Below, piece by piece: positions 9,439-37,872 of a stretch of 52,713 nucleotides of DNA. The notes beneath the pieces were generated by a model. The model had not been told where the DNA came from. It saw nothing but the letters and a program-made list of their open reading frames with translations, and did not search any database. Origin of the DNA: Methanobacteriota archaeon (GTDB lineage: Archaea > Halobacteriota > Methanomicrobia > Methanomicrobiales > Methanoculleaceae). Within the stretch, counting starts at the first letter, position 1; each line of letters starts with the position of its first letter. The DNA lies in the NCBI GenBank assembly GCA_030446015.1, contig JASUSO010000005.1:1-52713 (forward strand), given 5' to 3'. The position numbers were made by a program, and so were the translations under genes.

Positions 9439-9490
9439 CCTTGAACCCCCTGGGCTTCTCAAACTCCTGTTCAAGGGACAGTCGTTCTCC
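9439..9490 (-). repeat. Palindromic unit A (GAACGA...GAGTTTGAG family)
   Basis: Read on the minus strand it has the family frame GAACGA, stem 1 (CTGT/ACAG), GAGTTTGAG, then stem 2 (AAGCCC pairing imperfectly with GGGGTT). It occupies the same relative place beside the composite element as unit E at 37425-37503. Confidence 0.6.
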
Positions 9491-9540
9491 GGAACGTCGT
9501 CGGTCCAAGACTATCGTCTTCTCCTGCTCCGGTTCTAACG

Positions 9541-9880
9541 AACCATCGATATCGCCACGCACTGCCCCCGCCCCAAGGGGCGGGGAACGACGCTCCGCTA
9601 GGAGCGGAGTTAAAGCACCGTCAGGCGCGAGTTGCGACGGGTCGTAGAGCCGGAGCATGAGCACCACAGGTGTGGAGGAGGAGGCCGGAGGCCGGGCGGG
9701 GTGGGGGTTACAGGCATTAATTCCGATGTGGAGACAGGGGAGGGGGGATGCTCCCTCCTCGAAGCCTAACGGCTTCTCGTGCTCCGTTCCTGGCGGAATA
9801 TCGCACCTCGCACCTGACGGGGCTCAAGCTCGCTTCGCTCGCACTCCCCGTCAGCCCCACCCCCAATGGCGATATTCCCT
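9541..9880. repeat. Composite interspersed repeat, copy 1
   Basis: Non-coding element of about 340 bp sharing long blocks with 37512-37762. In order: a GATATCGCC-like edge, ACTGCCCCCGCCCC, a GGGGCGGGGAACGAC block, unit B, GAGCACC-loop-GGTG, AGGAGGAGGCCGGAGGCCGG, ATGTGGAGACAGGGGAGGG, CCCCGTCAGCCCC, and the edge AATGGCGATATTCC. The edges form an inverted repeat (ATCGCC/GGCGAT). No transposase or intact reading frame is present, which fits a non-autonomous element or a structured RNA. Confidence 0.7.
9581..9636 (+). repeat. Palindromic unit B
   Basis: Plus-strand copy inside composite copy 1. The frame GAACGA is followed by stem 1 CGCTCC (9591-9596) pairing with GGAGCG (9601-9606) across a GCTA loop, then GAGTTAAAG and a weaker second hairpin. 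Confidence 0.65.
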
Positions 9881-10013
9881 CGGAATCCGTGTCCAGTACG
9901 CAACCAATATGCTCCGCAGTACGTCTGATGACTATCAGCACCGCCGCTTGCACCACCCACACCCGGATGGCACCACTCTCAGCGGCAGCAAAAAAGATCG
10001 TCTGCAGGTCTGG
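9881..10013. other. Non-coding spacer between composite repeat and hisH
   Basis: 133 nt downstream of hisH with no recognised gene, promoter or repeat copy. A short A-rich run (CAGCAAAAAAGATCG), read as T-rich on the hisH strand, may terminate hisH transcription. Confidence 0.4.
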
Positions 10014-10622
10014 CTAGCAGATCCGCTCGATGAAGTTCTCAAGGATCTTCAGCCCCACCGTACCGCTCTTCTCGGGGTGGAACTGGACGCCGTAGGTGAG
10101 CCCGTTATTGACCGCCGAGGCGAAAGGGTGGATGTAGGTGGTGCTCGCGATGGTGTTCGCTGGTGCGGTCGCCGCGTAGTAGGAGTGGACGAAGTAGACG
10201 TACTCCTCTTCGTTGAGCCCGCAGAAGAGCGGGGTCTCGGGGTCGATCCGGATGGTGTTCCAGCCCATGTGGGGGACTTTCTCCCCGCCGGCCGGGACGA
10301 ACCGCTTCACGTCGCCCGGCACGAGGCCGAGCCCCCGGTGGATGCCGTGCTCTTCGCTTGAGTCCATGAGCATCTGCATCCCGAGGCAGATCCCGAGAAG
10401 CGGCGTCTTGTTCGCGGCGGCGACGACGGTTTCCGCAAGTCCGCCGAGCATCTCCATCCCGTCCCGGAACGCCCCGACGCCCGGGAGGACGATCCCGTCG
10501 GCGGACGCTATCGCCTCCGGGTCGGCCGTGATCGTCGACGCCGCTCCCGCCCGCTCAAGTCCGCGCAGGACGCTGCGCAGGTTGCCGAGGCCGTAATCAA
10601 TTATAACTATCCTCTTCTTCAT
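10014..10622 (-). CDS. hisH: Imidazole glycerol phosphate synthase, glutaminase subunit HisH
   Basis: 202-residue class I glutamine amidotransferase. The N-terminus IVIIDYGLGNLRS is typical of HisH. The nucleophile elbow LLGICLGMQML contains the catalytic cysteine, and VQFHPEKSG near the C-terminus supplies His and Glu. PHMGWN and FVHSYY are further HisH markers. It feeds ammonia to HisF for histidine and AICAR synthesis, but hisF is not in this window. The ATG at 10622 is chosen because GGGGAG lies 6 nt upstream; an ATG at 10628 directly abuts that SD. It overlaps the end of the upstream PAPS-reductase-like gene by 26 nt, so the two are translationally linked. Confidence 0.93.
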   Translation of the reverse strand: MKKRIVIIDYGLGNLRSVLRGLERAGAASTITADPEAIASADGIVLPGVGAFRDGMEMLGGLAETVVAAANKTPLLGICLGMQMLMDSSEEHGIHRGLGLVPGDVKRFVPAGGEKVPHMGWNTIRIDPETPLFCGLNEEEYVYFVHSYYAATAPANTIASTTYIHPFASAVNNGLTYGVQFHPEKSGTVGLKILENFIERIC

Positions 10623-12006
10623 CCGCATCTCCCCGTTTCCGCCAGAGTCCGCGCTCGATCCAGTCCTCGGGGAGCCCCCGCTCCTCCCCCCACCGGGCGA
10701 GCCTTTGATACCACATCCCCAGGAGTTCGGGGTGAGACTCCCCGATGATCGCAAACGTCGCAAGGTCGCTTGAAGGGCAGATGAAGCACCCGATGCGGTC
10801 GAGCCCCCGCTCGTAGAGGGTGTTGTAAGGCGCCTTCTCGCGGAAGATGTAGAGCCAGACGTGCATCGCCGTCCACTGCTGGATCGGGGCCGCCGAGAGT
10901 TGCTGCGGGACATGGGCGTTCGTCCAGACCCGTTTGCTCTGCATCCGTTTCACCGACTCGTACTTCCGCTGCCCGATGAACGAGAGGCATTCTCCCCAGT
11001 TCTCGTCGATGAGGCGGCCGACCGGGTGGAGTTTGCAGACCTTGCAGCACCAGCGGTTATCGACGGCCGGTGGCCCGTTCACCTCAAAAGTCTTCCAGAA
11101 GGTTTCGTCGTCGCAGATCCGCAGGACTTCGAGCCCGTAGCGGTTCGCCACCGCGTCCACGTTCTCGTAGGTCTCGGGGAACTCAAGCCCCGTGTCCGCA
11201 AAGAGGAGCGGCACCGGGCCGAGCGCTTTCTGGACGACGAGCAGGGTCGCGAGGCTGTCCTTGCCGCCGGAGTAGGAGACCGTGGGCCTCTGGGGGTTCT
11301 GCGCCGCGACATCGCGGACGAACCGGATGCTCTTTGCCTCGTAGTCCGCGAGGACCTGCTCGTTCGCCCTGACGGCATCGTCCCATGTCGCCGCACCGGG
11401 GACGCAGACCGACTGGACGTTCTTTCGCGTCCTGACGACGACCCCCCGCTCCATCGTCCCGGCGGTTGCGGCATCGGCCTTCGCTCTCCCGACGCCGATG
11501 CAGTCGCCGGCCTTCGTCAGGATGAAGACCTCGTCGCCGTCGGCGACGGCGGGGTCGATCGAGACGAGGCCCGGTGCGAGGACGCTTGCCCCCTCGTCGC
11601 GTATGGACGGGACTGCGCCGTCGTCGACGACGACGTAGCGTTTCGTCGGCCGCAGGTACTTCGCGGCGGCCGGGCGCGGGAGGGGCTCCCAGCGGTGCTC
11701 GTCCGGGATGTAGCGGACTGCGCCGACGACCGCCCCGCCGAGGACGATCTCGTCCATGCGGTCGTCGGCGGGGACTTTATTTAAGAGCGCGATATGGCCC
11801 TCTGGGATCAGTGCCGCTCCAAAGTGTTCGCGGAATATGGTATTGATCCGCTCGATGTCATCGGGGAACGCGGGCCGGGCGTCACCCGGCGGCGTGACGG
11901 CCACCGGGCGGGTGGGCGCGCCACAGGCGCAGACCTCAGAGAGCACGGGAGTGTGGCAGGCGTCGCACCAGCGAAGCAGGATTTTGCCGAGATAGATGCG
12001 GGGCAT
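10597..12006 (-). CDS. PAPS reductase-like protein with zinc ribbon and PUA-like domain
   Basis: 469 residues. An N-terminal zinc ribbon (WCDACHTPVLSEVCACG) is followed by a PUA-like module near 100-170 and then a PP-loop ATP pyrophosphatase domain with SYSGGKDSLATLL. Cysteines in WCCKVCK and CFICPSSD could hold an iron-sulfur cluster. This architecture matches the archaeal MJ0066-like family related to PAPS reductases. Members lack a proven single reaction; sulfur transfer or tRNA/cofactor thiolation are alternatives to sulfate reduction. ATG at 12006 matches usual family starts; ATG at 12012 is also possible. A TATA-like CTTTTATT at 12031-12038 (minus) predicts a leaderless transcript. It shares an operon with hisH. 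Confidence 0.8.
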   Translation of the reverse strand: MPRIYLGKILLRWCDACHTPVLSEVCACGAPTRPVAVTPPGDARPAFPDDIERINTIFREHFGAALIPEGHIALLNKVPADDRMDEIVLGGAVVGAVRYIPDEHRWEPLPRPAAAKYLRPTKRYVVVDDGAVPSIRDEGASVLAPGLVSIDPAVADGDEVFILTKAGDCIGVGRAKADAATAGTMERGVVVRTRKNVQSVCVPGAATWDDAVRANEQVLADYEAKSIRFVRDVAAQNPQRPTVSYSGGKDSLATLLVVQKALGPVPLLFADTGLEFPETYENVDAVANRYGLEVLRICDDETFWKTFEVNGPPAVDNRWCCKVCKLHPVGRLIDENWGECLSFIGQRKYESVKRMQSKRVWTNAHVPQQLSAAPIQQWTAMHVWLYIFREKAPYNTLYERGLDRIGCFICPSSDLATFAIIGESHPELLGMWYQRLARWGEERGLPEDWIERGLWRKRGDADEEEDSYN

Positions 12007-12030
12007 TTGCATATTCGTTGGGGTGAAACG

Positions 12031-12038
12031 AATAAAAG
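12031..12038 (-). promoter_or_regulatory. TATA box of the PAPS reductase-like/hisH operon
   Basis: CTTTTATT on the minus strand, 22-28 nt before the two candidate ATGs at 12012 and 12006. Confidence 0.45.
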
Positions 12039-12169
12039 TCTTGGGTGTATTCTACACCGTTCCCACAGTATGCTCTCAAGCGGTGGTTTTGCCCCCCCAA
12101 ACCCGGGTTGATCGTCCCGATTCCCAAGGATCGGGTCCTTCTGGTGCGGCAACGGGGTGGGGCAAACTA

Positions 12170-12398
12170 TTAAATATACGCACCGTCTCATAGTATTATC
12201 ATGTTCAATCATGTAGAATTCTGTTCGCCGGTCAGGTTCCGGCGTTTCAGCAATTCTACGCCGGCGAACGGCGAGATCCCTGATCGAGCGGGGTCTCCCG
12301 TCATGAGGATCGAGCGTGCGCCCCTGCCCGGGACCGCCGGGCCGGGGAGATGCGGGGTGAAGACGATGCATGAGAGCAGAGGCGCAAAGGTGGTATCT
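12170..12398 (+). promoter_or_regulatory. Promoter and structured leader of a small membrane protein gene
   Basis: A TATA-like TTAAATAT at about 12170-12177 predicts transcription from about 12200. The leader contains GTAGAATT (12213-12220) complementary to AATTCTAC (12252-12259), and inside that CGCCGG (12226-12231) complementary to CCGGCG (12239-12244). A competing 9-bp pairing links GTTCGCCGG (12223-12231) with CCGGCGAAC (12261-12269). The two folds cannot coexist completely. An in-frame ATG at 12201 could instead give a 66-residue extension, so leader versus coding is unresolved. Confidence 0.4.
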
Positions 12399-12686
12399 AT
12401 GCGAGTTGCAGGGAGAACGCTCCGAAAGACCGAGATACTCGGGTTGTTCATCTTCATACTCATGGCGGTCGCCATGCTTGCGGTCGGCACTGCGCTCTTC
12501 TACGACTGGCTTGCCGAACCCGGTTCGGCGCCTGTAGGGACGCCGGCCGACATCGGCCCGATACCCGGAGGGCTCGCGATTGCCGGCGCGATCCCCATCG
12601 TGCCCCTCGTGATCGGCGTCCAGGTGGCGGGGGCGATGACGCTCGTCGCGCTCTACCTGCTCTCCAGCGCCGGGCGCCGTGAATAG
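12399..12686 (+). CDS. Small two-helix membrane protein, unknown function
   Basis: 95 residues with a basic N-terminus and two hydrophobic segments, about 13-35 and 56-88, separated by a Gly/Pro-rich loop. No known family was recognised. The start at 12399 is preceded by the SD-like AAAGGTGG at 12387-12393. The same frame is open from an ATG at 12201 that would fit a leaderless start, but that extension looks low-complexity and overlaps the palindromic leader. It lies alone between the PAPS reductase-like gene and the PAS sensor. Confidence 0.55.
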   Translation: MRVAGRTLRKTEILGLFIFILMAVAMLAVGTALFYDWLAEPGSAPVGTPADIGPIPGGLAIAGAIPIVPLVIGVQVAGAMTLVALYLLSSAGRRE

Positions 12687-13006
12687 CGTGCTCCGGTGCC
12701 GGGAAACCTCCCTTCTTTTATCCTGATACCAAGGTCGAACCCCCCTACGGGGCGAGGTGATGCAGGAGGAGGAGGGCGGTTGCGCCCCACCCGCCCCGGT
12801 GAAGGGTTGTGATGCCAACCCATTTTATCTGATTAAAAATATACTAATGCCTGCGTTGTTCATCCCGGCGGGTGGCGGTTCGTACCCTTACTTGCCGAAC
12901 CCCCGGGAGACGCCGCCCGCCCGGCGAAGCTGAAGAGTCCTGCAGGTGTTCGGGACACGCCGGGCGAACACGTATCCAGGTGCCGGAACTGGTTGTGGAG
13001 TAAAAT
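12687..13006. other. Intergenic region with promoter of the PAS sensor
   Basis: A T-rich TTCTTTTATCC just after the membrane-protein gene may be its terminator. A GC-rich block around 12735-12815 vaguely recalls the GGAGGAGG segment of the composite repeat but is too degenerate to count. TTAAAAATATA at 12833-12843 is a good TATA candidate, giving a leader of about 140 nt. The SD-like GTGGAG lies at 12995-13000. Confidence 0.45.
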
Positions 13007-15268
13007 ATGGAGAATCTGCGAGACGAATTATCGATGAACCTTCAGGAGGTCCTGCTGGACGCCGCTCCCGCCCTCGACTGCCGGTCGCGGGAGCGGCTGG
13101 CGGCGGGGATCGAGGCCCTGATCGGCGAAAACCATGACCTTGCCGTCCGTGCCGCCCGCGCAGAGCTGGAGCGCGATGCCCTTCTTGCGGCCGTCGGCAG
13201 GCAGGGGTTCGTCTGCGACGCCGACGGCGAGGTGATCACGGCGGGTCCGGGCGAGGAGGACAGGATTGCCGGGGCGCTCCTCGGGAGGCGGGGCGCATCG
13301 CTCAGGTATCCTGGTGGCGAACCGGTCCCGCCCGGCGACCTCCCGGGGTGCCGGGCGCTCAGGGGCGAGAGGCTTGCTTCCTGTCGCTACACCGTCCACG
13401 ACCCCGGAGAGGAAGATCGTTACGTCGTCGTGTCCGCCTCGCCGATCGTCATGGGCGGGGCCGTCTCCGGTGCCGCCGTCACCTGGCAGGACGTCACGGG
13501 AGAGGAGCAGACCCGCCGCCGTCTTTCGGAGGCAAACACCCTGCTCGAGGGGCTCTTTGACAACCTCGGCGACATTGTTGGTATCCAGTACCCGGACCGC
13601 ACGATGCTGCGCTACAACCGCGCCGGCTACGAGATGCTCGGGATGACGCCGGAGGAGGTGAAGGGCCGGAAGTGCTACGAACTCATCGGGAGGACGGCGC
13701 CCTGCACGGTCTGTGCGACGGCCCATGCCGTCGTGAGCAGAAAGCGGGAGGTCGTGGAGAAGTTCGTGCCCGAATTCGGGCGGTACCTGGAGTGCCGCTC
13801 AAGCCCGATCCTGGATGAGAACGGCGAGGTGGCGTTCATCGTCGAGCAGCTCTACGACGTCACCGACCGGAAGCGTGCCGAGGACGAACTCCGGGAGAGC
13901 GAGGCGACGGCCCGGGCGCTCCTGAACGCCCCGAGCGAGATGATCATTCTCCTCGATAGGACTGGCCGGCTCATCGAGGTCAACGAGACGGCGACACGGC
14001 GGTTTGCACGGAGCCGGGAGGATCTCATCGGCCGGAGCCTATTCGAGTTCTTCCCGCCGGATGAGGCGGCAGTGTACGTGGCGCGTCTTGGGGAGGTCGT
14101 CGCGTCGGGCCGGCCCGCACGGTTCGAGGATGCGTGGGAAGGGCGGTTTTACGATGTCATCCTCTACCCGGCCGCCGACGAGCGGGGCAACGTCGTCCGG
14201 GTTGCGGCGGTTGCGCGGGACGTCACCGGGAAGAAGCGGGGGGAGGACGCCCTGCGGAAGCGGACACACGACTTAAACGAGCGGGTGAAGGAACTCTCGG
14301 TCCTGTACGAGGTATCCCGGATCATCGAGCGGCATTCGAAGTCTTCGCTCGATGAGATCTTCCGTGAGGTCGTCCGGGTCCTCCCCTCCGGCTGGGAGTT
14401 CCCGGAGAATGCCGTCGCGCGGATCACGGTGCAGGGGCGCCGGTTCGCGACGGAACACTTTGAGGAGACGCCCTGGCGGCAGGCATCCCCTATCGTCGTC
14501 CTCGGGGAGACGGTCGGGATGGTGGAGGTCTGCTACCTCCACGAGAGGCCGGAGAGGGACGAAGGGCCGTTCCTCGCCGAAGAGCGGGCGCTGCTCGATA
14601 TCGTCGCCGGGCGGCTCGGCGGCACGATTGAGCGGTTCCAGGCATGGGACTCTCTTGAGAAGAGCGAGTCGCAGTTCCGGGAGATCATGCAGCAGAGTTT
14701 CGATATGATCTACACCTGCTACAAAGAGGGCGGGATCGCCTACATCTCCCCGGCGGTGACCCGTATCCTTGGTTACACGCCCGATGAGGTCCTCGGCAGG
14801 AAGTGCCGGGACTTCATCGTCCCTGCGTCGCTCTCCGCCTGGGAGGAGGGGCGGAAGAAGATTGCCCGGGGCGAGCCTGTTGAGGGGCTCGAGGTCGAGT
14901 TCTACCGCAAAGACGGGTCGGTGGCCTTTCTCGAACTGAACGAGTCGCCGATCGTCCGCGACCGGTCGGTGATCGGGGTGCACGTCGTCGGCAGGGACGT
15001 CACCGAGCGGAAACAGAACGAGCAGCTCCGGCAGCATGCGTTCGAGCAGATCGAGCGGAACATCGAGCAGTTCGCGATCCTCGGCGACCACATCCGCCAG
15101 CCGCTCCAGGTGATCCTGGGGATGAGCGAACTCCTCGATGAAGAGATGGCCACGGGGAAGATCCGGGAGCAGGTAGCCCGGATCAACGGCTACATCGCGG
15201 AGCTCGACCGGGGCTGGATCGAGTCGCGGCAGGTCCGGGAGTTCCTGCGGCGGTACGACCTGGCGTGA
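13007..15268 (+). CDS. Multi-PAS/GAF sensor protein with truncated kinase end
   Basis: 753-residue soluble signalling protein. PAS-like domains lie at roughly 55-165, 175-290, 298-415 and 555-670, with a GAF-like segment at about 425-545. Each PAS ends in a DVT-x-(K/R)-(K/R) linker (DVTGEEQ, DVTDRKR, DVTGKKR, DVTERKQ). The second PAS has a Cys-rich stretch (RTAPCTVCATAH) that could bind a metal or haem. The C-terminus reads GDHIRQPLQVILGMSELLD, an H-box-like helix, and ends at RQVREFLRRYDLA with no HATPase domain. Such ATPase-less PAS proteins recur in Methanomicrobiales. It probably senses redox or ligands, but output cannot be autophosphorylation on its own. Confidence 0.8.
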   Translation: MENLRDELSMNLQEVLLDAAPALDCRSRERLAAGIEALIGENHDLAVRAARAELERDALLAAVGRQGFVCDADGEVITAGPGEEDRIAGALLGRRGASLRYPGGEPVPPGDLPGCRALRGERLASCRYTVHDPGEEDRYVVVSASPIVMGGAVSGAAVTWQDVTGEEQTRRRLSEANTLLEGLFDNLGDIVGIQYPDRTMLRYNRAGYEMLGMTPEEVKGRKCYELIGRTAPCTVCATAHAVVSRKREVVEKFVPEFGRYLECRSSPILDENGEVAFIVEQLYDVTDRKRAEDELRESEATARALLNAPSEMIILLDRTGRLIEVNETATRRFARSREDLIGRSLFEFFPPDEAAVYVARLGEVVASGRPARFEDAWEGRFYDVILYPAADERGNVVRVAAVARDVTGKKRGEDALRKRTHDLNERVKELSVLYEVSRIIERHSKSSLDEIFREVVRVLPSGWEFPENAVARITVQGRRFATEHFEETPWRQASPIVVLGETVGMVEVCYLHERPERDEGPFLAEERALLDIVAGRLGGTIERFQAWDSLEKSESQFREIMQQSFDMIYTCYKEGGIAYISPAVTRILGYTPDEVLGRKCRDFIVPASLSAWEEGRKKIARGEPVEGLEVEFYRKDGSVAFLELNESPIVRDRSVIGVHVVGRDVTERKQNEQLRQHAFEQIERNIEQFAILGDHIRQPLQVILGMSELLDEEMATGKIREQVARINGYIAELDRGWIESRQVREFLRRYDLA

Positions 15269-15296
15269 GTGGGATATCTTCCCCGGGGACTCCTAG

Positions 15297-15490
15297 GTCC
15301 GGTCGTTGTGCGTCGCCGGTGTCGCACAAGAGATTTTGTGCGACATGAAACCCCATTTTGTGTCGCACAAATAGTGTTGTGCGCCAGAAGTGGTGCACAA
15401 CCGCTATCTCGTATATAAATATGTCTGCCAGATCGGGGTTTTGGTATACGCAACCTGGTTTGCAGGTATCAGGGTATTCACAACCGGCCC
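15297..15490. repeat. TTGTG/CACAA hairpin array, copy 1 (3' of Fic gene)
   Basis: Inverted repeats with constant TTGTG/CACAA ends. GTCGCACAA (15321-15329), TTGTGCGACA (15336-15345) and TGTCGCACAA (15361-15370) can pair in alternative ways, and TTGTGCGCC (15377-15385) pairs with GGTGCACAA (15392-15400). The array runs into the Fic stop codon, whose last codons are TTG TGA. The first ~80 bp and the last ~60 bp are nearly identical to 18253-18326 and 18454-18516. Confidence 0.75.
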
Positions 15491-16587: not shown

Positions 16588-16621
16588 GACGCCTCACTCT
16601 CCCGGGATTGCATTCCGGCCG

Positions 16622-17851: not shown

Positions 17852-18202
17852 ATGCTTACGGCCGACGGTATCCTCGATGTGCTGGCAAAACACCGTGAAC
17901 GGATCAGGAGCCTGGGCATCCGGCGGATCGGGGTCTTCGGGTCGTTTGCCCGGGGCGAAACGACGCTCTGAAAGAGCGGAGTTCGAGAAACCCGAAGGTT
18001 TCGAGCGGGGCGTGAAGAGAGCGATATCGATATCCTCATCGAGTTCGAGGAAGGGGGGCGCTCCTTTGACACGTACATGGACCTCAAGTTCTTCCTTGAA
18101 GATATCTTTGGGAGGAGGGTCGACCTTGTCGACCGCGATACGATAAAGCCGGATCTCGCGCCGTATATCCTCCAGAGTGTCCGGTATGCCCCGGAAATAT
18201 AA
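17852..18202 (+). pseudogene. MNT-type nucleotidyltransferase gene interrupted by a 57-bp palindromic insert
   Basis: The first part (17852-17956) encodes MLTADGILDVLAKHRERIRS and on to GVFGSFARG. After a 57-bp insert (17957-18013) the same frame resumes with EESDIDILIEFEEGGRSF and continues to the stop at 18200-18202. Removing the insert restores a continuous 97-codon gene, the usual length for minimal nucleotidyltransferases (GSFARG...SDIDILIEF motif) that act as antitoxins of HEPN partners. The insert length is a multiple of three but contains an in-frame TGA at 17969. No HEPN partner follows. The SD AGGAG lies at 17841-17845. Confidence 0.85.
17957..18013 (+). repeat. Palindromic unit D inserted within a gene
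   Basis: Contains the family frame: GAAACGA, stem 1 CGCTCT-GAA-AGAGCG, then GAGTTCGAG, and stem 2 AAACC-CGAA-GGTTT. Its borders are set by the restored nucleotidyltransferase frame; GAA occurs at both ends, a possible 3-bp duplication. Confidence 0.8.
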
Positions 18203-18716: not shown

Positions 18717-19085
18717 ATGACAGGACACACATTAACCAGGGCGGCACGCGAGACTATCATCTCAATACTCACCAGACACGATGCCGAGTGGATCGCGGTC
18801 TTCGGCTCCTATGCGCGGGGATCCGCCAATCCGGCGAGCGATATCGATATCCTGGTCAGATTCGCCCGCAAAAAAAGCCTCTTTTCGCTTGTCCGGATCG
18901 AGGACGAACTCGCCCGGGCTCTTGGCATGAAGGTGGATCTCGTCACCGAGAACGCCGTGAGCCCGTACCTTGCCGATGCAATCTACCGTGATGCTGTGGT
19001 GATCTATGACGCCTCGCGTGTCTCCACCACATCCTTGATGCCATCTTCGATGATGAGGACCGGTATGCCAGGGAGGACGCAGTGA
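18717..19085 (+). CDS. MNT-type nucleotidyltransferase (antitoxin-like)
   Basis: 122 residues with the minimal nucleotidyltransferase motif AVFGSYARGSANPASDIDIL (28-47), followed by VRF and KVDLVTENAVSPYLADAIY. Such proteins AMPylate and neutralise HEPN RNase toxins. The last ~22 residues (after VVIYDAS) do not look like the family and probably arise from a small deletion. In another frame, 19022-19117 could encode LHHILDAIFDDEDRYARE and on, recalling the start of a HEPN partner. The antitoxin domain seems intact while the partner is decayed. Confidence 0.75.
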   Translation: MTGHTLTRAARETIISILTRHDAEWIAVFGSYARGSANPASDIDILVRFARKKSLFSLVRIEDELARALGMKVDLVTENAVSPYLADAIYRDAVVIYDASRVSTTSLMPSSMMRTGMPGRTQ

Positions 19086-28858: not shown

Positions 28859-28863
28859 TTGCC

Positions 28864-29067: not shown

Positions 29068-29068
29068 C

Positions 29069-29914: not shown

Positions 29915-30162
29915 GCATGCTCCGGCTCATGATCACCGCGGGGGCGGTCTTCTACGTCGGGGTCTTCCTCGTCCAGGCCGCCCGGAACGGGAGCGTAATC
30001 GAACAGACGGTCGCGGGCGTCATCCTCCTCGCCGTCGCCACGGCGCTGACCTGGATGCGGGACGAACACACCCTGAAACGCTCCGAGATGGTGCTGCTCT
30101 GGGTGATGGTGCTCGGGTTCCTCGCCTACGCGGCGGCGCACGCGCTGGGGGTGATCGCGTGA
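29911..30162 (+). CDS. Eha small membrane subunit (EhaK or EhaL)
   Basis: 83 residues with three hydrophobic segments and a central MRDEHTLKRSEM loop. It overlaps ehaJ (ATGA) and ehaM (GTGA). In the canonical order EhaK and EhaL lie here; only one such gene is present, and its place directly before ehaM suggests EhaL (DUF2104-like). Confidence 0.55.
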   Translation: MSMLRLMITAGAVFYVGVFLVQAARNGSVIEQTVAGVILLAVATALTWMRDEHTLKRSEMVLLWVMVLGFLAYAAAHALGVIA

Positions 30163-30542: not shown

Positions 30543-30994
30543 GCATCCTCCAGAAGATCAAGAACACCGTCCGGTCCCGGTCGATCCACGTCAGTTACGT
30601 CGATGTCGGGTCGTGCAACGGCTGCGACATCGAGGTGCTCGCCTGCCTCGCGCCGCGCTACGACATCGAGCAGTACGGGATCTACGTCCACAACAACCCG
30701 CGGGAGGCCGACGTCCTCTTGGTGATCGGGTCCGTCACCCCCCAGTGGGTCGACAAACTCCGCGATATCTGGGAGAAGATCCCGGAACCGAAGGTTGCCG
30801 TCGCCATCGGCAACTGCCCCATATCGGGGTGTGTCTATGCCCGGAAGGGTACCTTGACGAGTCCGCCCGTCGAGAAGTACATACCGATAGCCGCACAGGT
30901 GCCGGGCTGCCCGCCCCGTCCTACTGAGATACTCTCTGCCATCCTCTCGGTCGCGCCGCTGATATTCAAGGACTACGAGGAGAAACAGCCATGA
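30539..30994 (+). CDS. ehaN: Eha [NiFe]-hydrogenase small subunit EhaN
   Basis: 151 residues, NuoB-like. Four ligands for one [4Fe-4S] cluster are visible: CNGC in VGSCNGCDIEVLACL (about residues 23-26), the cysteine in GNCPISGCVY, and VPGCPPRP. It passes electrons between the NiFe site in EhaO and the ferredoxin subunits. It overlaps ehaM and ehaO by 4 nt each. Confidence 0.9.
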   Translation: MSILQKIKNTVRSRSIHVSYVDVGSCNGCDIEVLACLAPRYDIEQYGIYVHNNPREADVLLVIGSVTPQWVDKLRDIWEKIPEPKVAVAIGNCPISGCVYARKGTLTSPPVEKYIPIAAQVPGCPPRPTEILSAILSVAPLIFKDYEEKQP

Positions 30995-32079
30995 AGAAGA
31001 CCGTCGACGTCTCCATCCCGCTCGGCCCGATGCATCCCTGCTGGAAGGAGCCCGTCCGCATCAAGTGCGAGACGGCGGGCGAGCGGGTGCTCCGCGCCGA
31101 GGTCGAGCTCGGCTACATGAAGAAGGGGATCGAGCGGATCATGCGGGGCCGTCCCTGGCAGGAGGTGATGTTCCTCGCCGAGCGGGTCTGCGGCATCTGC
31201 TCGGTCGTCCACAACATGGTCTTCATCGAGGCGATGGAGAAGATCAGCGATATCGCCGTCCCGCCGCGGGCGGCATACCTGCGGGTCGTCGCGAACGAAC
31301 TCGACCGGGTGGCAAGCCACATCCTCGCGAACTTCTCCTACTGCTACACGATCGAGCACGAGACGCTCGCGATGTACCTCCTCAATACCCGGGAGACGGT
31401 GCTCGACAACCTGGAGCGTCTCACGGGCTCCCGGATCAACACCGCCTACATGATCCCGGGCGGCGTCCGGTTCGACCTCCTCCCGGGCGACGCCGCGGCG
31501 ATGCTCGCCGACCTTGCAAAGGTTGAGGAGGAGATGAAGCGGCACGTCCGGATCTTCGAGACCGGCCCGCTGATTGCGCTCCGGAGCAAGGGGATCGGCT
31601 ACATGAGCCGGGAAGACGCGATCCGGGCCCACACCGTCGGCCCCACCGCCCGGGCGAGCGGGGTCGAGGACTGCGATCTCCGCCTCCGCCACCCGACCTA
31701 CCGGGCGCTCGGGTTTACCCAGATAACCCGGACGGAGGGCGACAACTTCGCCCGTGTCATGGTCAGGTTCCAGGAGGTCTTCCAGAGCATCGACCTGATA
31801 CGAAAGTGCATCGAGACGCTCCCCGACGGCCCCATCCGGGGCGGCGGGTTCTGCAAGGCGGGCGAGACGTCGTATGCCGGCGAAGCCCCCCGGGGCGAGC
31901 TGACCTACGCCATCAAGACCGACGACTACGGCAGGGTGATCGATATCGCGATCCGGACGCCCTCGGTCATGAACATCGAGGCCTGCGCCCACGAGATGAT
32001 CAAGGACGCCGCGTCGATCGCCGACGTGACGTCGACGTTCATCAGCAGCGACCCCTGCATCGCGTGCAACGAGAGGTGA
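30991..32079 (+). CDS. ehaO: Eha [NiFe]-hydrogenase large subunit EhaO
   Basis: 362 residues, NuoD-like catalytic subunit. Both NiFe-binding pairs are present: ERVCGICSVVHN (about 64-75) and DPCIACNER at the extreme C-terminus. The chain stops three residues after the last CxxC, so there is none of the C-terminal extension that maturation proteases remove in many hydrogenases. It oxidises H2 to reduce ferredoxin, driven by ion influx. It is translationally coupled to ehaN. Confidence 0.92.
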   Translation: MKKTVDVSIPLGPMHPCWKEPVRIKCETAGERVLRAEVELGYMKKGIERIMRGRPWQEVMFLAERVCGICSVVHNMVFIEAMEKISDIAVPPRAAYLRVVANELDRVASHILANFSYCYTIEHETLAMYLLNTRETVLDNLERLTGSRINTAYMIPGGVRFDLLPGDAAAMLADLAKVEEEMKRHVRIFETGPLIALRSKGIGYMSREDAIRAHTVGPTARASGVEDCDLRLRHPTYRALGFTQITRTEGDNFARVMVRFQEVFQSIDLIRKCIETLPDGPIRGGGFCKAGETSYAGEAPRGELTYAIKTDDYGRVIDIAIRTPSVMNIEACAHEMIKDAASIADVTSTFISSDPCIACNER

Positions 32080-32083
32080 AGAG

Positions 32084-32692
32084 ATGCGATCGATCGTCTA
32101 CTACCTGCGAGAGTTCCTCCGGCCGGAATGGATCCGGAAGTTCTTCTTCGCGAAGACCGCGCCGCTCGAAACCCCCTCCTACTTCAAGGACTATCCGTCC
32201 CTGACGGGGAACGAGTGCGTGGCATGCCTCTCCTGCATGATGATCTGCCCCGCGCCCGATGCGATCGCGGTTCTCCGCACGAGGGACGGGTGGGAGCCGG
32301 AGATCTACCCCGGCCACTGTGTCCGGTGCGGCCTCTGCGTCGAGGCATGCCCCGAGGCCGTCCTTGCGAGCGGCCGGATCCTCGACGTCACGTCCCGCGA
32401 CGGGACGGCGCTCTGGTCGTGGTACCGCCTGGAGGTCGATGACACCCTCTGCATGCGGTGCGGGAACTGTTGCGTCTCCTGCCCGGTCAACCGGAAGATC
32501 GACCAGCAGCTTGCGGGGTCGGGGACCTCCTCGAGCGACGAGGTGATCATGCGGGTCGAGGGCGGCCGGGTGCGGGTCATCCACGAGGAGAAGTGCACGG
32601 GGTGCAAGACCTGCGAACTCAACTGCCCGAACGGCGCGATCCGGGTCGCCCGGATGGTGGAAGGGGTGCAGATCGCGGAGGCGGAGGCATGA
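32084..32692 (+). CDS. Polyferredoxin with four [4Fe-4S] motifs (Eha/Fwd electron carrier)
   Basis: 202 residues with four CxxCxxCxxxCP motifs: CVACLSCMMICP (about 45-56), CVRCGLCVEACP, CMRCGNCCVSCP and CTGCKTCELNCP. The N-terminal RSIVYYLREFLRPEWIRKFF is basic and amphipathic, as in NuoI-type subunits that dock on membrane complexes. The gene lies 4 nt after ehaO and overlaps fwdD (ATGA), so it could carry electrons inside Eha (EhaP-like) or between Eha and Fwd. Confidence 0.85.
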   Translation: MRSIVYYLREFLRPEWIRKFFFAKTAPLETPSYFKDYPSLTGNECVACLSCMMICPAPDAIAVLRTRDGWEPEIYPGHCVRCGLCVEACPEAVLASGRILDVTSRDGTALWSWYRLEVDDTLCMRCGNCCVSCPVNRKIDQQLAGSGTSSSDEVIMRVEGGRVRVIHEEKCTGCKTCELNCPNGAIRVARMVEGVQIAEAEA

Positions 32693-33078
32693 AGTTCCTC
32701 ATGATCACCGGGAGGACGGTGAACCAGGGCGTGACCGTCGAGAACAAGACCTCGCCCGAATACGCGGCGGAGACCTCGACCTGCTTCATGCACGAGTTCG
32801 ACATGATGGAACTCGGCCTCGATGACGGAGATGCGATCCGGGTGACCGGGCCGTGCGGCGACGTCGTGATGCGGGTCTCTGCATCGGTCGAGGTGGAGAT
32901 GGGCACCGTCTTCGTCCCCTACGGGCCGTATGCAAACCACATCCTCTCCGCCGGCACCCGCTCCACCGGGATGCCGGACTTCAAGTCCCACATGGTGGAG
33001 ATCGAGCCGACCGACGAAGCACCGAAACTGGTTCACGAGCTGATGGAAGACCTGGGAGGGCTTGCGTATGATCGTTAA
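32689..33078 (+). CDS. fwdD: Formylmethanofuran dehydrogenase subunit D
   Basis: 129 residues, the molybdopterin-dinucleotide-binding domain that completes the FwdB active site. MKFLMITGRTVNQGVTVE at the start and GPYANHILSAGTRSTGMPDFKS near 85-106 are typical of FwdD/FmdD. Starts inside the polyferredoxin stop (ATGA) and overlaps fwdB by 11 nt. Confidence 0.92.
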   Translation: MKFLMITGRTVNQGVTVENKTSPEYAAETSTCFMHEFDMMELGLDDGDAIRVTGPCGDVVMRVSASVEVEMGTVFVPYGPYANHILSAGTRSTGMPDFKSHMVEIEPTDEAPKLVHELMEDLGGLAYDR

Positions 33079-34357
33079 GGACGCGGTCTGCCCGTTCTGC
33101 GGATGCCTCTGCGACGACATCGAGGTGGAGGTCGAGGGGGACAGGGTGGTCGCCGTGACGAACGCCTGCGAGCTCGGGACGACGAAGTTCATGGGCGAGA
33201 AGAGGCTGAAGAACCCGATCCAGCGCGTCGGAGATGAGTGGAAGGATATCACCTACGACGAGGCCATCCGCTACGCCGCCGATATGCTTCTATCTGCCGA
33301 GCGCCCGCTCCTGTATGGGTGGAGCGGAACCCACGGGGAGGCCCAGTGCGTGGGGGTGCACATGGCCGAACTCATCCACGGCGTCATCGACAACACCTCC
33401 TCGGTCTGCCACGGCCCCTCGATCCTCGCCATCCAGGAGGTCGGGCACCCGGGCTGCACCCTCGGGGTGGTGAAGAACCGGGCGGATCTCGTCATCTACT
33501 GGGGGTCGAACCCGATCGACGCCCATCCGCGGCACCTCTCCCGCTACACCCGTTATGCGGAGGGGTTCTTCCTCGATAACGCCTTCCGCGACCGGAAGGT
33601 GATCGTCGTCGACGTCAGGAAGACCGAGACCGCGAACATCGCCGACGAGTTCGTCCAGGTCAGGCCCGGCGGGGACTATGCAATCCTCTCGGCGCTCCGG
33701 GCGATCGTCCAGGGGAAGACGGAGACGATCCCGCGGACGGTCGCGGGCGTCACCCGCGAGCAGCTCATCCGGGTGGCGAACCTCTGCAAGTCCGCTAAGT
33801 TCGGGGCGGTCTACTTCGGGCTCGGGCTCACGATGACGCCGGGGAAGTACAAGAACATCCGCAACGCCATCGAACTCGTCTCGGAGTTGAACCGGCACAC
33901 GAAGTTCACCATCTCGGCGATGCGGGGCCACTACAACGTCTACGGGTCGAACGAAGTGAACACCTGGATGACCGGGTATCCCTTCGGGATCGACTTCTCC
34001 CGGGGGATCGCGTTCTATAACCCGGGAGAGACGACGGCGGTGGACATCCTGGCCCGGAAGGAGTGCGACGCGGCGCTGATCGTCGGGAGCGACCCGGCCG
34101 CCCACTTCCCGCGCAGGTGCCTGGAGCACCTCGCCGAGATCCCGATCGTCCAGCTCGACCCCTACCCGAACGCCACCACCGCGTTCTGCAACGTCCAGAT
34201 CCCGGTCGCGGTGACCGGGATCGACGCAGAAGGGACGGCCTACCGGATGGACGGGGTGCCGATCCGGACGCGGCGCGTCCTCTGGTCGGACTACCTCTCC
34301 GATGAGGAGGTCCTCTCCCGGATGTACGCCCTGATGCAGGAGGCGCAACAGCCATGA
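33068..34357 (+). CDS. fwdB: Formylmethanofuran dehydrogenase subunit B (W/Mo catalytic subunit)
   Basis: 429 residues. The N-terminal VCPFCGCLCDDIEVEV holds a [4Fe-4S] cluster together with the cysteine in NACELGT. The W/Mo ligand cysteine is in SSVCHGPS (about 115-122); a plain TGC codon, so this is not the selenocysteine isoform. It reduces CO2 to formate at the bis-pterin metal site; FwdA then joins the formate to methanofuran. ATG at 33068 is chosen; an upstream TTG is less likely. Overlaps fwdD and fwdA. Confidence 0.94.
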   Translation: MIVKDAVCPFCGCLCDDIEVEVEGDRVVAVTNACELGTTKFMGEKRLKNPIQRVGDEWKDITYDEAIRYAADMLLSAERPLLYGWSGTHGEAQCVGVHMAELIHGVIDNTSSVCHGPSILAIQEVGHPGCTLGVVKNRADLVIYWGSNPIDAHPRHLSRYTRYAEGFFLDNAFRDRKVIVVDVRKTETANIADEFVQVRPGGDYAILSALRAIVQGKTETIPRTVAGVTREQLIRVANLCKSAKFGAVYFGLGLTMTPGKYKNIRNAIELVSELNRHTKFTISAMRGHYNVYGSNEVNTWMTGYPFGIDFSRGIAFYNPGETTAVDILARKECDAALIVGSDPAAHFPRRCLEHLAEIPIVQLDPYPNATTAFCNVQIPVAVTGIDAEGTAYRMDGVPIRTRRVLWSDYLSDEEVLSRMYALMQEAQQP

Positions 34358-36054
34358 CGGAGCTCCTGGTGAAGAACGCCTGCGTCATCGATCCGCTCCG
34401 CGGGATCAACGGCGACGTGATGGATATCGCCATCCGCGATGGGAAGATCGTCGAGGAGGTGAGCGATGCCGCCGAGGTGGTCGACGCCCGCGGGATGCTC
34501 ACGATGCCGGGCGGGATCGACTCCCACACCCATATCTGCGGGACGAAGGTGAACTTCGGGCGCTACATGAGCCCGGAGGATATGCGGGCGGGAAGGACGC
34601 CCCGCCGGGGGCCGATGCACGCCACGTCCGGCTACAGCGTCCCGACGACCTACGGCAACAGTTACCGCTACAGCGTGATGGGCTACACCACCCTGCTCGA
34701 GGGCGCGATGGCGCCGCTCGAGGCCCGGCACACCCACGAGGAGTTCACCTACACGCCGCTGCAGGACACGATGGCGAACACCCTCTTCGATGGGAACTGG
34801 GCGATCATGGAGGCGATCCGGGACGGCGACATCAAACGGGTCGCCGCCATCATCGCCTGGACGCTCTCGGCCGTGAAGGGGTTCGGCGTCAAACTCACGA
34901 ACCCCGGCGGCACCGAAGCCTGGCAGTGGGGCAAGAACGTCTCCTGCATCCGCGATCCGGTGCCCTACTTCGAGGTGACGCCGGCCGAGATCATCCGGTC
35001 GGTCGTGGAGGCGAACGAGCTCCTCCACCTCCCGCACTCGGTGCACCTCCACTGCAACAACCTGGGCACCCCGGGGAACTACACCTGCACGCTCGGGTCC
35101 ATGGGCCTCATCCCCGACCTGAATCCGAAGCGGCAGACGCTGTATGCGACCCACGTCCAGTACCATGCCTACGGCGGGTCGGGGTGGAAGGACTTCTGCT
35201 CAAAGAGCGAGCCGATCGCAAACTTCGTCAGCATGCGGCCGCAGATCGTCATCGATATGGGGCAGGTGATGTTCGGCCGGACGACGACGATGACCGCCGA
35301 CGGGCCGATGGAGTTCAACCTCTACCGCCTCCACCACGACAAGTGGAGCAATCACGACGTGGAACTCGAGACTGGCTCAGGGATCATCCCGGTCGTCTAC
35401 CGGCGCAAGAACCTGGTCAACTCGATCATGTGGTCGATCGGCCTTGAGCTCGCGCTCCTCACGAAGAGCCCCTGGCAGTGCCTGCTCACGACGGACAACC
35501 CGAACGGTGCGCCGTTCGTCAAGTACCCGGAGATCATCGCCCTCCTGATGAGCAAGCGCTACCGCGATGCCGAGTTCGCGACGGTCCACCCCGATACCGG
35601 GTCACGGGTGCCACTCCCGGCGATCGAGCGCGAACTCGACTGGAACGAGATCGCGGTGATGACCCGGGCCGGCGCGGCGCGGGCGCTCGGGATCCAGGAT
35701 CTCGGGAAAGGGCACCTCGCGCCGGGCGCCGACGCGGACATCGCGATCTATCCGCTCAAGATCGACGAGGTCGATCCCTCGGCCGAGTACCAGAAGGTGA
35801 TCGACGGATTCAGCCAGACCGAGTACACGATCAAGCGGGGCAGGGTCGTCGCCCGGCGGGGCGAGTGCCTGGTGCACGGGAGCAACGCCACGTTCTGGGT
35901 CAGGCCGAAGGTTCCGGAGAACTACGATATGAGCAAGGATCCTGACTTCATCGAGAAGTTCGAACGCTACTACACCGTCCGGATGAGCAACTACCCGGTG
36001 CAGGAGGAGTACCTGAGCCGGAACCGGTGCATCGAGACGGAGGCGGACCTATGA
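34354..36054 (+). CDS. fwdA: Formylmethanofuran dehydrogenase subunit A (amidohydrolase)
   Basis: 566 residues, the usual length. Binuclear metal site: GIDSHTHI (about 55-62) supplies the HxH pair, and the lysine in GFGVKLTNPGG (residue 180) matches the carboxylated bridging lysine. Later residues include SVHLHCNN and LTTDNPNG. It condenses formate, made by FwdB and passed through an internal tunnel, with methanofuran. ATG start in a 4-nt overlap with fwdB. Confidence 0.95.
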   Translation: MTELLVKNACVIDPLRGINGDVMDIAIRDGKIVEEVSDAAEVVDARGMLTMPGGIDSHTHICGTKVNFGRYMSPEDMRAGRTPRRGPMHATSGYSVPTTYGNSYRYSVMGYTTLLEGAMAPLEARHTHEEFTYTPLQDTMANTLFDGNWAIMEAIRDGDIKRVAAIIAWTLSAVKGFGVKLTNPGGTEAWQWGKNVSCIRDPVPYFEVTPAEIIRSVVEANELLHLPHSVHLHCNNLGTPGNYTCTLGSMGLIPDLNPKRQTLYATHVQYHAYGGSGWKDFCSKSEPIANFVSMRPQIVIDMGQVMFGRTTTMTADGPMEFNLYRLHHDKWSNHDVELETGSGIIPVVYRRKNLVNSIMWSIGLELALLTKSPWQCLLTTDNPNGAPFVKYPEIIALLMSKRYRDAEFATVHPDTGSRVPLPAIERELDWNEIAVMTRAGAARALGIQDLGKGHLAPGADADIAIYPLKIDEVDPSAEYQKVIDGFSQTEYTIKRGRVVARRGECLVHGSNATFWVRPKVPENYDMSKDPDFIEKFERYYTVRMSNYPVQEEYLSRNRCIETEADL

Positions 36055-36818
36055 AGGTCACGCTCGCGATGAAGCCCGCGGCGAAGGGATTCATCCCGAT
36101 CGAGGCGGAGTCGATCGTCCCGAAGAACTTCCTTTCGGGCACCGATCTCCTGGTCTGGCGGGGGAACCGGGAGCTCCGGCTCGACGAGGTCTTCTCGGTC
36201 TCGGTGGAGGGCGAGGCCGATCGGGCGGAGGGCGTAGAGGTCGTCCTCTCGGGAGAGACGTTCCGGTTGAAGAGAGTCGGTGAGTACATGGACGGCGGGA
36301 AGATCACCGTCCTCGGCGACATCGGGATGCACTGCGGCAACTTCATGACCGCCGGGACGATCGAGATCCACGGGAACGCCGACGGCTGGCTCGGCCGGGA
36401 GATGGCGGGAGGAGCCATTGTCTGCCGGGGCGATGTCGCCGACTACTGCGCCTCGGGGTACCGCGGCGGCCGGAAGGGGATGAAGGGGGGCACCGTCGAG
36501 GTCTTCGGCCGCGCCGGGGATTTCCTCGCGGAGAACCTCGCGGACGGCACGGTGATCGTCCACGGCGATGCCGGGGATATGCCCGGGGCGGAGATGCGCG
36601 GCGGCACGCTCATCGTCCACGGGGACTGCAGCCGCCCGGCCGCGAACATGAAGGGGGGCTCCTGCTACGTCTACGGCACCGCACGGGAGATGATCCCGAC
36701 CTTCAAGAAGATCGGGCCGGTGCAGCACGACGGGCGCACGCTTATCCAGTTTGCCGGCGATCTCGCGAATCGCGGGAAAGGAAACCTTTTTGTGAAGAAC
36801 TACGAATATCTGGACTGA
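36051..36818 (+). CDS. fwdC: Formylmethanofuran dehydrogenase subunit C
   Basis: 255 residues. The C-terminal two-thirds is a right-handed beta-helix of glycine-rich repeats (GGKITVLGDIGMHCG, GGAIVCRGDVADYC, GGTLIVHGDCSRPA), the GXGXG domain also found in glutamate synthase. It scaffolds the FwdABD core. Starts in an ATGA overlap with fwdA. fwdE, F, G and H are not in this window. Confidence 0.93.
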   Translation: MKVTLAMKPAAKGFIPIEAESIVPKNFLSGTDLLVWRGNRELRLDEVFSVSVEGEADRAEGVEVVLSGETFRLKRVGEYMDGGKITVLGDIGMHCGNFMTAGTIEIHGNADGWLGREMAGGAIVCRGDVADYCASGYRGGRKGMKGGTVEVFGRAGDFLAENLADGTVIVHGDAGDMPGAEMRGGTLIVHGDCSRPAANMKGGSCYVYGTAREMIPTFKKIGPVQHDGRTLIQFAGDLANRGKGNLFVKNYEYLD

Positions 36819-36819
36819 T

Positions 36820-36969
36820 ATGGTCAGGCACGAGTGTGGGTTCGAGGCCCCGATCCACTGCAAGCGGTGTGGGCGGCCGCTGGAGAACAACGAGCGTACG
36901 GGCCTTTACTGCCCGCACTGCGGAAGAAGAGTGAGCATGCTCTGCCCGGGCTGCGGTCGTCTCTGGTGA
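36820..36969 (+). CDS. 49-residue double zinc-ribbon protein coupled to the fwd operon
   Basis: Small frame starting 1 nt after the fwdC stop. It holds a single cysteine near the start (HECG) and three CxxC pairs: CKRCG, CPHCG and CPGCG, the last close to the C-terminus GRLW. The arrangement suggests one or two bound zinc ions. The tight spacing implies co-translation with fwdC. The cysteine regularity makes chance unlikely. No named family was recognised; roles in assembly or regulation of Fwd/Eha are speculative. It is convergent with the DUF1922 gene, 4 nt apart. Confidence 0.65.
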   Translation: MVRHECGFEAPIHCKRCGRPLENNERTGLYCPHCGRRVSMLCPGCGRLW

Positions 36970-36973
36970 CCGG

Positions 36974-37240
36974 TCAGACCCGGCTCTTCACCCACCGGGC
37001 ATACTGCGCCCGGAGCTTGCGGATGTCCTGCTCCGTGAGATCTTTTTTCCCGGTCTGGTGCAGGTACGCCTCGAGCTGCTCCACGACCCGCTCTGCGTCC
37101 AGGAAGTTGTCGGCGTCCAGGTAGATCGGCACCCGCTGGACGTTGATCACCTCGCCGCACATCGGACAGAGCCGCCAGCGCTGATAACGGTCAACGTAGT
37201 TGAAGGTCTTGCAGCCCGGACAGCGGATGACGAGGTACAT
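36974..37240 (-). CDS. DUF1922 zinc-ribbon protein
   Basis: 88 residues. The N-terminal zinc ribbon MYLVIRCPGCKTFNYVDRYQ plus LCPMCGE gives two CxxC pairs, followed by a helical region (DAERVVEQLEAYLHQTG). This matches the archaeal DUF1922 family, which has a known fold but no established function. A TATA-like ACTATAAA on the minus strand lies near 37272-37279. Confidence 0.8.
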   Translation of the reverse strand: MYLVIRCPGCKTFNYVDRYQRWRLCPMCGEVINVQRVPIYLDADNFLDAERVVEQLEAYLHQTGKKDLTEQDIRKLRAQYARWVKSRV

Positions 37241-37424
37241 GATTACTGGGAGTTGTGCGGGCGGGCGGATTTATAGTTATCCATCTGGTGTTCTTCTGGT
37301 GTCGGGGTGTTTTAGTGGGCGGGGTTTGTGCACTCACAGGGTGGGAGGCAAGAAAATTAACCTGCCCAAACGATATTCAGTTTTTTCCCGATCGCGGTTT
37401 GTGAACGGCTTTTCCACCGGCATC
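37241..37424. other. Intergenic stretch upstream of the second composite repeat
   Basis: Contains the DUF1922 promoter (TTTATAGT near 37272-37279 on the plus strand) and otherwise no gene or repeat that I recognise. Confidence 0.4.
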
Positions 37425-37503
37425 GCGCCTTCGGTGTTCTTACTCCGGCTCTCGAAGACCTACGGCCTTCTCGAACTCCTGTCCTACGGACAGTCGTTCT
37501 CTG
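37425..37503 (-). repeat. Palindromic unit E
   Basis: On the minus strand: GAACGA, stem 1 CTGTCC-GTA-GGACAG, GAGTTCGAG, stem 2 AAGGCC-GTA-GGTCTT (one G-T pair), then a further GCGCC/GGTGT hairpin. It sits beside composite copy 2 as unit A sits beside copy 1. Confidence 0.7.
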
Positions 37504-37546
37504 AACCACCACCTATCGCCGTGACTGCCCCCGCCCCTTGGGGCGG

Positions 37547-37603
37547 GGAACGACTGCCGGGAGCGGAGCGGACGGCAGGAGTTTGAGCACCGAAGGTGCG
37601 GAG
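37547..37603 (+). repeat. Palindromic unit F
   Basis: GAACGA, stem 1 TGCCG ... CGGCA with a 13-nt loop, GAGTTTGAG, stem 2 CACC-GAA-GGTG, GGAGG. The stem sequences differ from those of units B, D and E while the frame is the same. Confidence 0.7.
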
Positions 37604-37700
37604 GAGGAGGCCGGAGGCCGGGCGGGGCGGGGTTACAGGAATTCTTTTGAATGTGGAGACAGGGGAGGGGGGCTCGCCCCCCTCCCCGTCAGCCCCTCTT

Positions 37701-37747
37701 CGCACCTTCGGTGCTCGAACTCCGCTCCTGCGGAGCGTCGTTCCCCC
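37701..37747 (-). repeat. Palindromic unit G
   Basis: Minus strand: GAACGA, stem 1 CGCTCC-GCA-GGAGCG, GAGTTCGAG, stem 2 GCACC-GAA-GGTGC. A degraded fragment of another unit (GCACC-TTT-GGTGC, then CTGCC) follows at about 37815-37845. Confidence 0.75.
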
Positions 37748-37872
37748 AATGGCGATATTCCCACAGTCCACTGCATGGGGAGATCCTAGGAAGAACATGC
37801 ACGGTTTCCCTCCAGCCTCGCACCTTTGGTGCTCCTGCCCTTCGGCCAGTCTCAACCCACACCCATCGCCGC

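Follow-up and report, generated by a model that had tools for sequence, protein, structure and literature searches.

A probably mobile family of double-hairpin palindromic repeats expanded in one genus of Methanomicrobiales

The window analysed here is a stretch of 52,713 nucleotides from contig JASUSO010000005.1 of assembly GCA_030446015.1 (Methanomicrobiales, Methanoculleaceae), referred to below as the source genome. It carries several copies of a palindromic unit of ~45 bp that consists of two adjacent hairpins. The units probably constitute a non-autonomous mobile DNA family, which has expanded in one genus of the Methanomicrobiales and for which no mover is recognised. The two-hairpin unit would enter gene spacers, other units and inverted-repeat elements (here termed containers), and its entry would build tandem and nested arrays; in the single conserved gene in which it is frequent, it was found only with an intact reading frame. 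The unit would be moved by an enzyme acting in trans, and template switching would help to keep the hairpin arms matched. Template switching is a likely partner of mobility, and the shares of the two are not separable here. The initial annotation of the window had described a modular double-hairpin family; the insertion behaviour, the nesting in units and containers, and the in-frame copies in a conserved gene are additional to it.

Unit structure and covariation

The layout GAAC-GA-stem1-GA-GTTY-GA-stem2-GA was obtained from 21 aligned units, in which stem 1 has ~6 pairs and the second stem follows GTTY-GA. The GAAC and GTTY ends also pair, so that hairpin 1 is made of an inner and an outer stem with GA opposite GA between them. 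A covariance model, R1, was built from these 21 units (18 distinct). Six of them lie in the window, and independent support must therefore come from other copies. The model was run on 53 loci, of which 34 were from the source genome (some overlapping) and 19 from relatives. This gave 165 matches, and the best 150 were aligned, yielding 121 distinct units. The resulting alignment, A2, was fitted to R1 and hence leans towards its structure.

Standard pairs occupied 91.9% of the pair cells in the 21 units, compared with 79.4% after shuffling. Over the 121 distinct units, the covariation score was 0.430 versus 0.171 for shuffled columns, and slid controls did not exceed 0.071. The outermost pair was often G-U (GU 57, GC 36). 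Under a purpose-made tree-based null, in which substitutions were replayed along a FastTree tree, five of the 15 structural pairs were significant at E<0.05, all of them in hairpin 1, and no other column pair reached this level; covariation in hairpin 2 was not significant. Unguided RNAalifold on A2 likewise predicted five pairs, all in hairpin 1. As A2 had been fitted to R1 and hairpin 2 lacked significance, the claim of covariation rests on hairpin 1. The initial annotation had reported stem changes matched on both arms, and these are borne out, as is covariation beyond the window copies. It had also read the matched changes as expected when pairing is selected. The matching itself stands, with hairpin 1 alone significant; selection on pairing is not proven, as template switching could also match the arms.

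The bare pattern GAACGACN{5,30}GAGTTYGAGC had 16 matches in the 2.1-Mb assembly and none for a reversed control. At the gathering threshold, an Rfam search of the window returned tRNA only, leaving the units without an Rfam match.

Copy number and taxonomic spread

In the source assembly, R1 gave 159 matches at E<=1 and 138 at E<=0.001. Assembly counts are a lower bound, given that 150 candidates were scored and many units stand at contig ends. Units lie within ~120 bases of the starts of contigs C3, C13, C26, C33, C35, C38, C67, C72, C84, C88, C93, C101, C105 and others; this closeness to contig starts makes it probable that units interrupt the assembly and that their number is underestimated.

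The family is concentrated in a single genus. Matches at E<=0.001 were present in 32 of its 35 genomes, with more than 100 matches in 16 and at least 80 in 19; ten genomes had no more than five. A survey of the order with stricter filters (27 candidates scored per genome) found matches at E<=0.0001 in 41 of 232 genomes, namely the 32 of the genus and nine from other genera, eight of which had one or two copies and one of which had 14. Across 392 genomes of the phylum (16 candidates scored each), 17 had matches at E<=1e-6, 14 belonging to the genus and three to the order, and no copies were found outside the order at this threshold. In a pattern scan of wider genome contigs, 80 of at least 118 listed stretches were scored; 78 gave values of 5e-4 or weaker and were taken as chance, and the sole matches below 1e-4 (L120 and L153) were both from Methanoculleus. 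The initial annotation had named a lack of further copies in relatives, or of covariation beyond the window copies, as grounds for refutation; neither outcome was observed.

Filled and empty sites

The clearest view of insertion within the window is offered by an MNT nucleotidyltransferase gene (17852..18202, + strand). A unit called by R1 lies inside it at 17958..18002 (+), directly after the residues GSFARGE, where it adds an in-frame TGA; the part after the insertion matches PF01909, and most of the homologues read lack the unit. MNT genes are multi-copy and have differing surroundings, and the compared genes are accordingly termed homologues. Matches were found in 30 of the 35 genomes, and the 20 best copies, one per genome, were read. 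Sixteen of these were empty, with exactly 14 bases between two conserved blocks. The filled copies had 62 bases in the source genome and in G016 (+48, with the TGA) and 156 bases in G006 (+142, frame lost); in G012, an array shares the right flank but not the left side. A further MNT copy of the source genome, on contig C41, has an open frame.

Variable occupancy was also observed in spacers. At least one unit was present in 13 of 27 hisH loci and in 13 of the 23 closest Rieske-protein loci, counted over the fetched stretches, some of which end at contig ends. Copies of the type-1 container from three loci each carried a single unit at the position CATTGGGG^GAGGGGCT, a different one in each, and a fourth locus had a fourth unit after GTCTGGGG in a container copy of slightly different context. 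The commonest indel lengths were 45 and 46 bp, accounting for 19 of 67 merged sites, which are not all independent as they include related series from a 15-bp repeat locus (L299). We infer that the filled sites are gains. As units occupy otherwise empty sites in genes, this argues for ectopic insertion and not only for local slippage.

In-frame copies in an NcsA-like gene

A second gene site was found in an NcsA-like tRNA-thiolase gene, for which TIGR00269 and PF22082 score above their cut-offs and NF047749 matches at E 1.3e-58 yet below its cut-off. The gene was matched in 34 of the 35 genomes, and 30 were read. Twenty genomes have a stretch of 15 residues between two CxxC pairs (first to last cysteine block), and two have one of 20. 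The stretch is filled in the remaining eight (G000, G006, G007, G012, G015, G018, G029 and G032), reaching 45, 46, 60 or 111 residues. The inserts are made of units and add 30, 31 (four genomes), 45 (two genomes) or 96 codons, and all eight are in frame and free of stops. Mapped on the gene tree, the four states (empty and three types of insert) require six changes; G007, which is filled, and G008, which is empty, form a sister pair supported at 100/100, and many other forks are weak.

The units have no open-frame bias of their own: 4.46 of six frames were open across 112 units, compared with 4.44 in shuffled sequence. Given this, selection acting on the gene itself is the simplest explanation for the intact frame of the inserts. 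Further in-frame hosts were sought by a peptide search in one reading frame; long open frames were listed, and of the seven read, six look spurious or intergenic. NcsA is therefore the sole clear in-frame host in that search. In the seventh, L376 (G015, contig C62), units lie directly upstream of, and in frame with, a gene that by eye resembles cation-efflux genes, perhaps as an over-long start.

The NcsA-like protein of the source genome (L331, contig C68) has SGSKGSS in the PP-loop, where most relatives have SGGKDSS, and sits on a long branch. Because of the changed PP-loop and the long branch, this gene may, judging from its sequence, be decaying and losing function. The predicted structure of the G007 protein had a mean pLDDT (predicted local distance difference test) of 52, and of ~28 in the insert, which is too poor to use.

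Arrays, containers and genomic context

Units occur singly, in tandem arrays with a period of 44-68 bp, in inverted pairs and nested within each other. An example of nesting is found in G006, where a 95-bp stretch with further hairpins lies in the loop of a hairpin-1 stem that is intact in the source genome and G016. A tandem repeat with a 15-bp period, AACGCGATGGTTCGT, continues into arrays of units in G007 (L072/L299, near C1:547,000).

Two types of container with short inverted ends were recognised, and no gene was noticed inside either. Type 1 is bounded by TATCGCCA..TGGCGATA; 14 left ends were listed, ten of them with a right end, spanning 194-502 bp. Type 2 is bounded by CTCACGCGAAG..CTTCGCGTGAG, and some of the listed pairs are chance matches in genes. 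The type-2 family bears CGCGAAG repeats and occurs with and without units (L042-L061, for example L047:2220-2331). Many units lie within containers of one type or the other, which would suit a reading in which they are merely internal parts that travel as passengers. We regard this as quite improbable, given that container copies occur both with and without units and that the NcsA and MNT inserts, by eye, lack container ends.

The genomic context was studied in a 395-kb sample of G007, made of stretches picked for holding matches and annotated with a home-made gene caller (called coding fraction 80%). It held 134 matches in 36 clusters, of which four lay at least 80% within called open reading frames (ORFs), three partly so, and 127 did not overlap any. 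In the source genome, one of 70 A2 matches over 206 kb was in a called ORF, at an apparent over-long start. The 35 clusters with context comprised 16 in convergent, 13 in tandem and six in divergent spacers. For comparison, all 244 spacers of the sample comprised 40 convergent, 149 tandem and 55 divergent, and the 110 element-free spacers of at least 100 bp comprised 15, 64 and 31, respectively. Units of opposite orientation share clusters in this sample.

Loops and folded form

The loops carry information on which nucleic acid the unit folds in. Hairpin 1 was detected in 91 of the 121 units, with 46 GNA, ten GNYA, one GNRA and 34 other loops. Hairpin 2 was detected in 104, with 43 GNA, 38 GNYA, five GNRA and 18 other loops, and its closing pair was C-G in 103. 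GNRA thus accounts for six of the 54 GNNA loops of both hairpins. A model-free scan of 206 kb found 31 hairpins with a G..A loop and GA on both sides, against none or one in ten Markov controls. In DNA, GNA and GNNA loops with a C-G closing pair have exceptional stability, whereas the stable tetraloop of RNA is GNRA. Because the loops are mostly GNA or GNYA and GNRA is rare, and with the GA/GA feet of the stems and the outcome of the hairpin scan, the form that folds would be single-stranded DNA rather than RNA.

The alternative is a structured RNA, in which units would be retained because transcripts fold, for instance as terminator-like or 3'-end structures by which messages are protected or terminated. 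The covariation of the stems, the frequent G-U at the outermost pair, the stable RNA folds and the excess of convergent clusters in G007 (16/35 versus 40/244 spacers) are consistent with such a role. Against it stand the scarcity of GNRA loops, the presence of both orientations in shared clusters, the occurrence of the same spacer in relatives without units, the copies inside genes and the absence of an Rfam match. Taken together, a function in RNA appears unlikely as the explanation of the family.

Mechanism of spread

A transposase of the Y1 family was the only mover surveyed. The family PF01797 was over its cut-off in six of the 35 genomes. Five of these (G011, G020, G023, G031 and G033) have 0-3 units, and the sixth, G018, has 83. 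Among the 19 high-copy genomes (80 units or more), G018 alone has PF01797; the source genome holds a 28-position match below the cut-off. As a check of the search, the family was found in five of 14 control genomes. The anatomy of the units, with short hairpins, inverted pairs, location in spacers and no fixed target duplication, fits repetitive extragenic palindromic (REP)-like elements moved by a resident REP-associated tyrosine transposase (RAYT) or IS200-type Y1 transposase. Since 18 of the 19 high-copy genomes have no recognisable Y1 transposase, a resident RAYT or IS200 is unlikely to be the mover in most carriers and was rejected for those 18, and this account of the family as a whole is very improbable.

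Spread could also proceed with no transposase at all, through replication slippage, template switching and ectopic recombination among units, with the palindromes maintained by the same processes. According to the consulted part of PMC8794818, template switching between hairpin arms can create and mend stems, giving matched changes. Switching of this kind, linked to replication, would likewise fit the nesting of units and the matched arms. The tandem arrays with their 44-68 bp period, the lack of a fixed target duplication and the lack of an identified mover point the same way. The inserts in NcsA and MNT, however, are not copies of adjacent gene sequence, and the different units at one container point are not local duplications. 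We consider a purely transposase-free origin to be a genuine possibility, though the less probable one.

A mobile family that folds as single-stranded DNA must also be weighed against several other observations that count against it. No mover was found among the 35 genomes in the Y1 survey, and Y1 transposases over the cut-off occur mainly where units are few. No fixed target-site duplication was seen on the unit; junction ambiguity ranged from 0 to 11 bases at 38 sites, which contain near-duplicates. Insertion after GA was considered and rejected as a target rule, being possible at 24 of the 38 junctions but observed at 29 of the 67 sites versus 31.8 expected from slid windows. The MNT genes of the source genome and G016 share the insert and differ upstream, which implies that this gene has itself moved. 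The direction of gain or loss is unpolarised; unit loss could explain some of the empty sites, and exchange of genes between species may have occurred. A role in transcripts might account for the location in spacers and the excess of convergent clusters, and in the three units folded the difference between the unit strand and its complement was larger with RNA energies than with DNA energies.

Units and containers in the window

Nine units were called by R1 in the window at E<=1e-4, and two weaker matches, with E 0.42 and 0.73, were taken as chance. All six units listed by the initial annotation were recovered on the same strands, no more than a few bases from the positions it gave, with E-values of 3e-11 to 4.6e-16. 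The two fragments it mentioned fared differently: that near 37815 was called, whereas that near 9760 is visible by eye and was not called at E<=1.

The first group of units begins with a copy at 9443..9487 on the minus strand (E 3e-11), which has an imperfect stem 1 (CTGT/ACAG round a 7-base loop). It is followed by a type-1 container, TATCGCCA...TGGCGATA, of 325 bp at 9550..9874, which was found by the container pattern (locus L038), lies between hisH and an acyl-CoA synthetase gene, and has units in both orientations. These are a unit at 9585..9630 (+, E 8e-13) with stem 1 CGCTCC/GGAGCG and GTTA replacing GTTY, a second unit in tandem with it at 9634..9675 (+, E 8.9e-8), and a short or partial unit at 9808..9840 (-, E 9.5e-5). 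The last two are beyond the original list. The shared frame and stems proposed for the family therefore hold overall, with deviations in the units at 9443 and 9585.

The second group opens with a unit at 37455..37499 (-, E 3.9e-13), previously listed at 37425-37503, with stem 1 CTGTCC/GGACAG and stem 2 AAGGCC/GGTCTT. A 244-bp type-1 container, TATCGCC...GGCGATA, follows at 37514..37757; its ends were read by eye and are unmatched by the container pattern. It has units on both strands, one at 37548..37601 (+, E 3.1e-14) with ~ten extra bases in the stem 1 loop, as seen in the alignment, and one at 37700..37743 (-, E 4.6e-16) with stem 1 CGCTCC/GGAGCG. A partial unit lies at 37818..37849 (-, E 1.9e-5).

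Just downstream of the interrupted MNT gene, an MntA-type antitoxin gene was identified at 18717-19085 (+), with NF047752 above its cut-off.

Comparison with known repeat families

Several known families share features with the units. BOX elements of pneumococcus are modular repeats in which the number of internal boxes varies, and the units are likewise modular, a likeness drawn from description alone. Containers of types 1 and 2 resemble miniature inverted-repeat transposable elements in their short inverted ends and in that no gene was noticed inside them; the 45-bp unit differs in having neither a fixed target duplication nor terminal inverted repeats beyond its own hairpins.

The initial annotation knew of no described Methanomicrobiales repeat of this form. 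This has to be amended, as a satellite table in the consulted part of PMC6749651 lists Fam_48_45_4, a 45-nt tandem repeat of Methanoculleus marisnigri, which probably represents arrays of this unit. In that part the family has a table entry only, and neither its structure nor any dispersed, nested or intragenic copies are dealt with. The archaeal rows of the RepRanger table, in the consulted part of PMC12306157, include no Methanomicrobiales. Searches aimed at the family in the open-access PMC literature, a scope outside which most subscription papers fall, turned up no description of it.

The closest parallels are with bacterial REPs and bacterial interspersed mosaic elements, and with Rickettsia palindromic elements (RPEs). 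As described in the consulted sections of PMC3733652, GTAG- or CGTC-tagged REPs are high-copy short hairpins of spacers, with opposite-orientation pairs, convergent bias, stem variation and occasional intragenic copies, all of which recur here; in the G007 sample, 127 of 134 matches lie outside called ORFs. CGTC REPs also occur without a known transposase, and archaea are named in that paper only in the reference list. Unlike REPs, the units have no GTAG tag, their feet are GA/GA within GAAC..GTTY and, by eye, the CGTC stem rules are unmatched; stem 1 has ~6 pairs starting C-G, compared with 8-9 pairs starting A-T (PMC3733652, same sections). The two-hairpin unit with GA opposite GA and its long tandem and nested arrays are further differences, and the RAYT/Y1 transposase expected of REP carriers was present in 6/35 genomes and in 1/19 with high copy number.

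RPEs, according to the consulted part of PMC10969869, are palindromes that occur in intergenic stretches and also, in frame, within protein genes. They are ~150 bp long and many lie in genes, whereas the present units are ~45 bp, modular and archaeal, and have one clear host gene. In-frame insertion in a conserved protein gene is shared, with 8/8 NcsA-like inserts in frame, in one gene only and with the MNT copies broken; an open-frame bias of the element is not shared (4.46 versus 4.44 in shuffled sequence). Since the RAYT and tag comparisons fail and the likeness to RPEs is one of features, the best reading is that the units work like REPs or RPEs without being assigned as members of either.

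The family provides an example from archaea of short palindromes that lie in frame within a conserved gene, and the 35-genome set allows a direct comparison of empty and filled sites. As 18 of 19 heavy carriers have no recognisable Y1 transposase, it also makes the spread of transposase-less palindromes, such as the CGTC REPs, a testable question. The strong covariation of the stems may stem from DNA mechanics and not from RNA function. A bolder proposal, which we hold only tentatively, is that the units represent a mobile element of a new kind. The 45-nt unit would move as folded single-stranded DNA with GNA/GNNA loops and with no Y1 transposase, would land in other hairpins and so build nested ones, and in several species would have added extra peptide to a zinc finger in an enzyme of tRNA modification; it would be an archaeal counterpart of the RPEs with a mechanism of its own.

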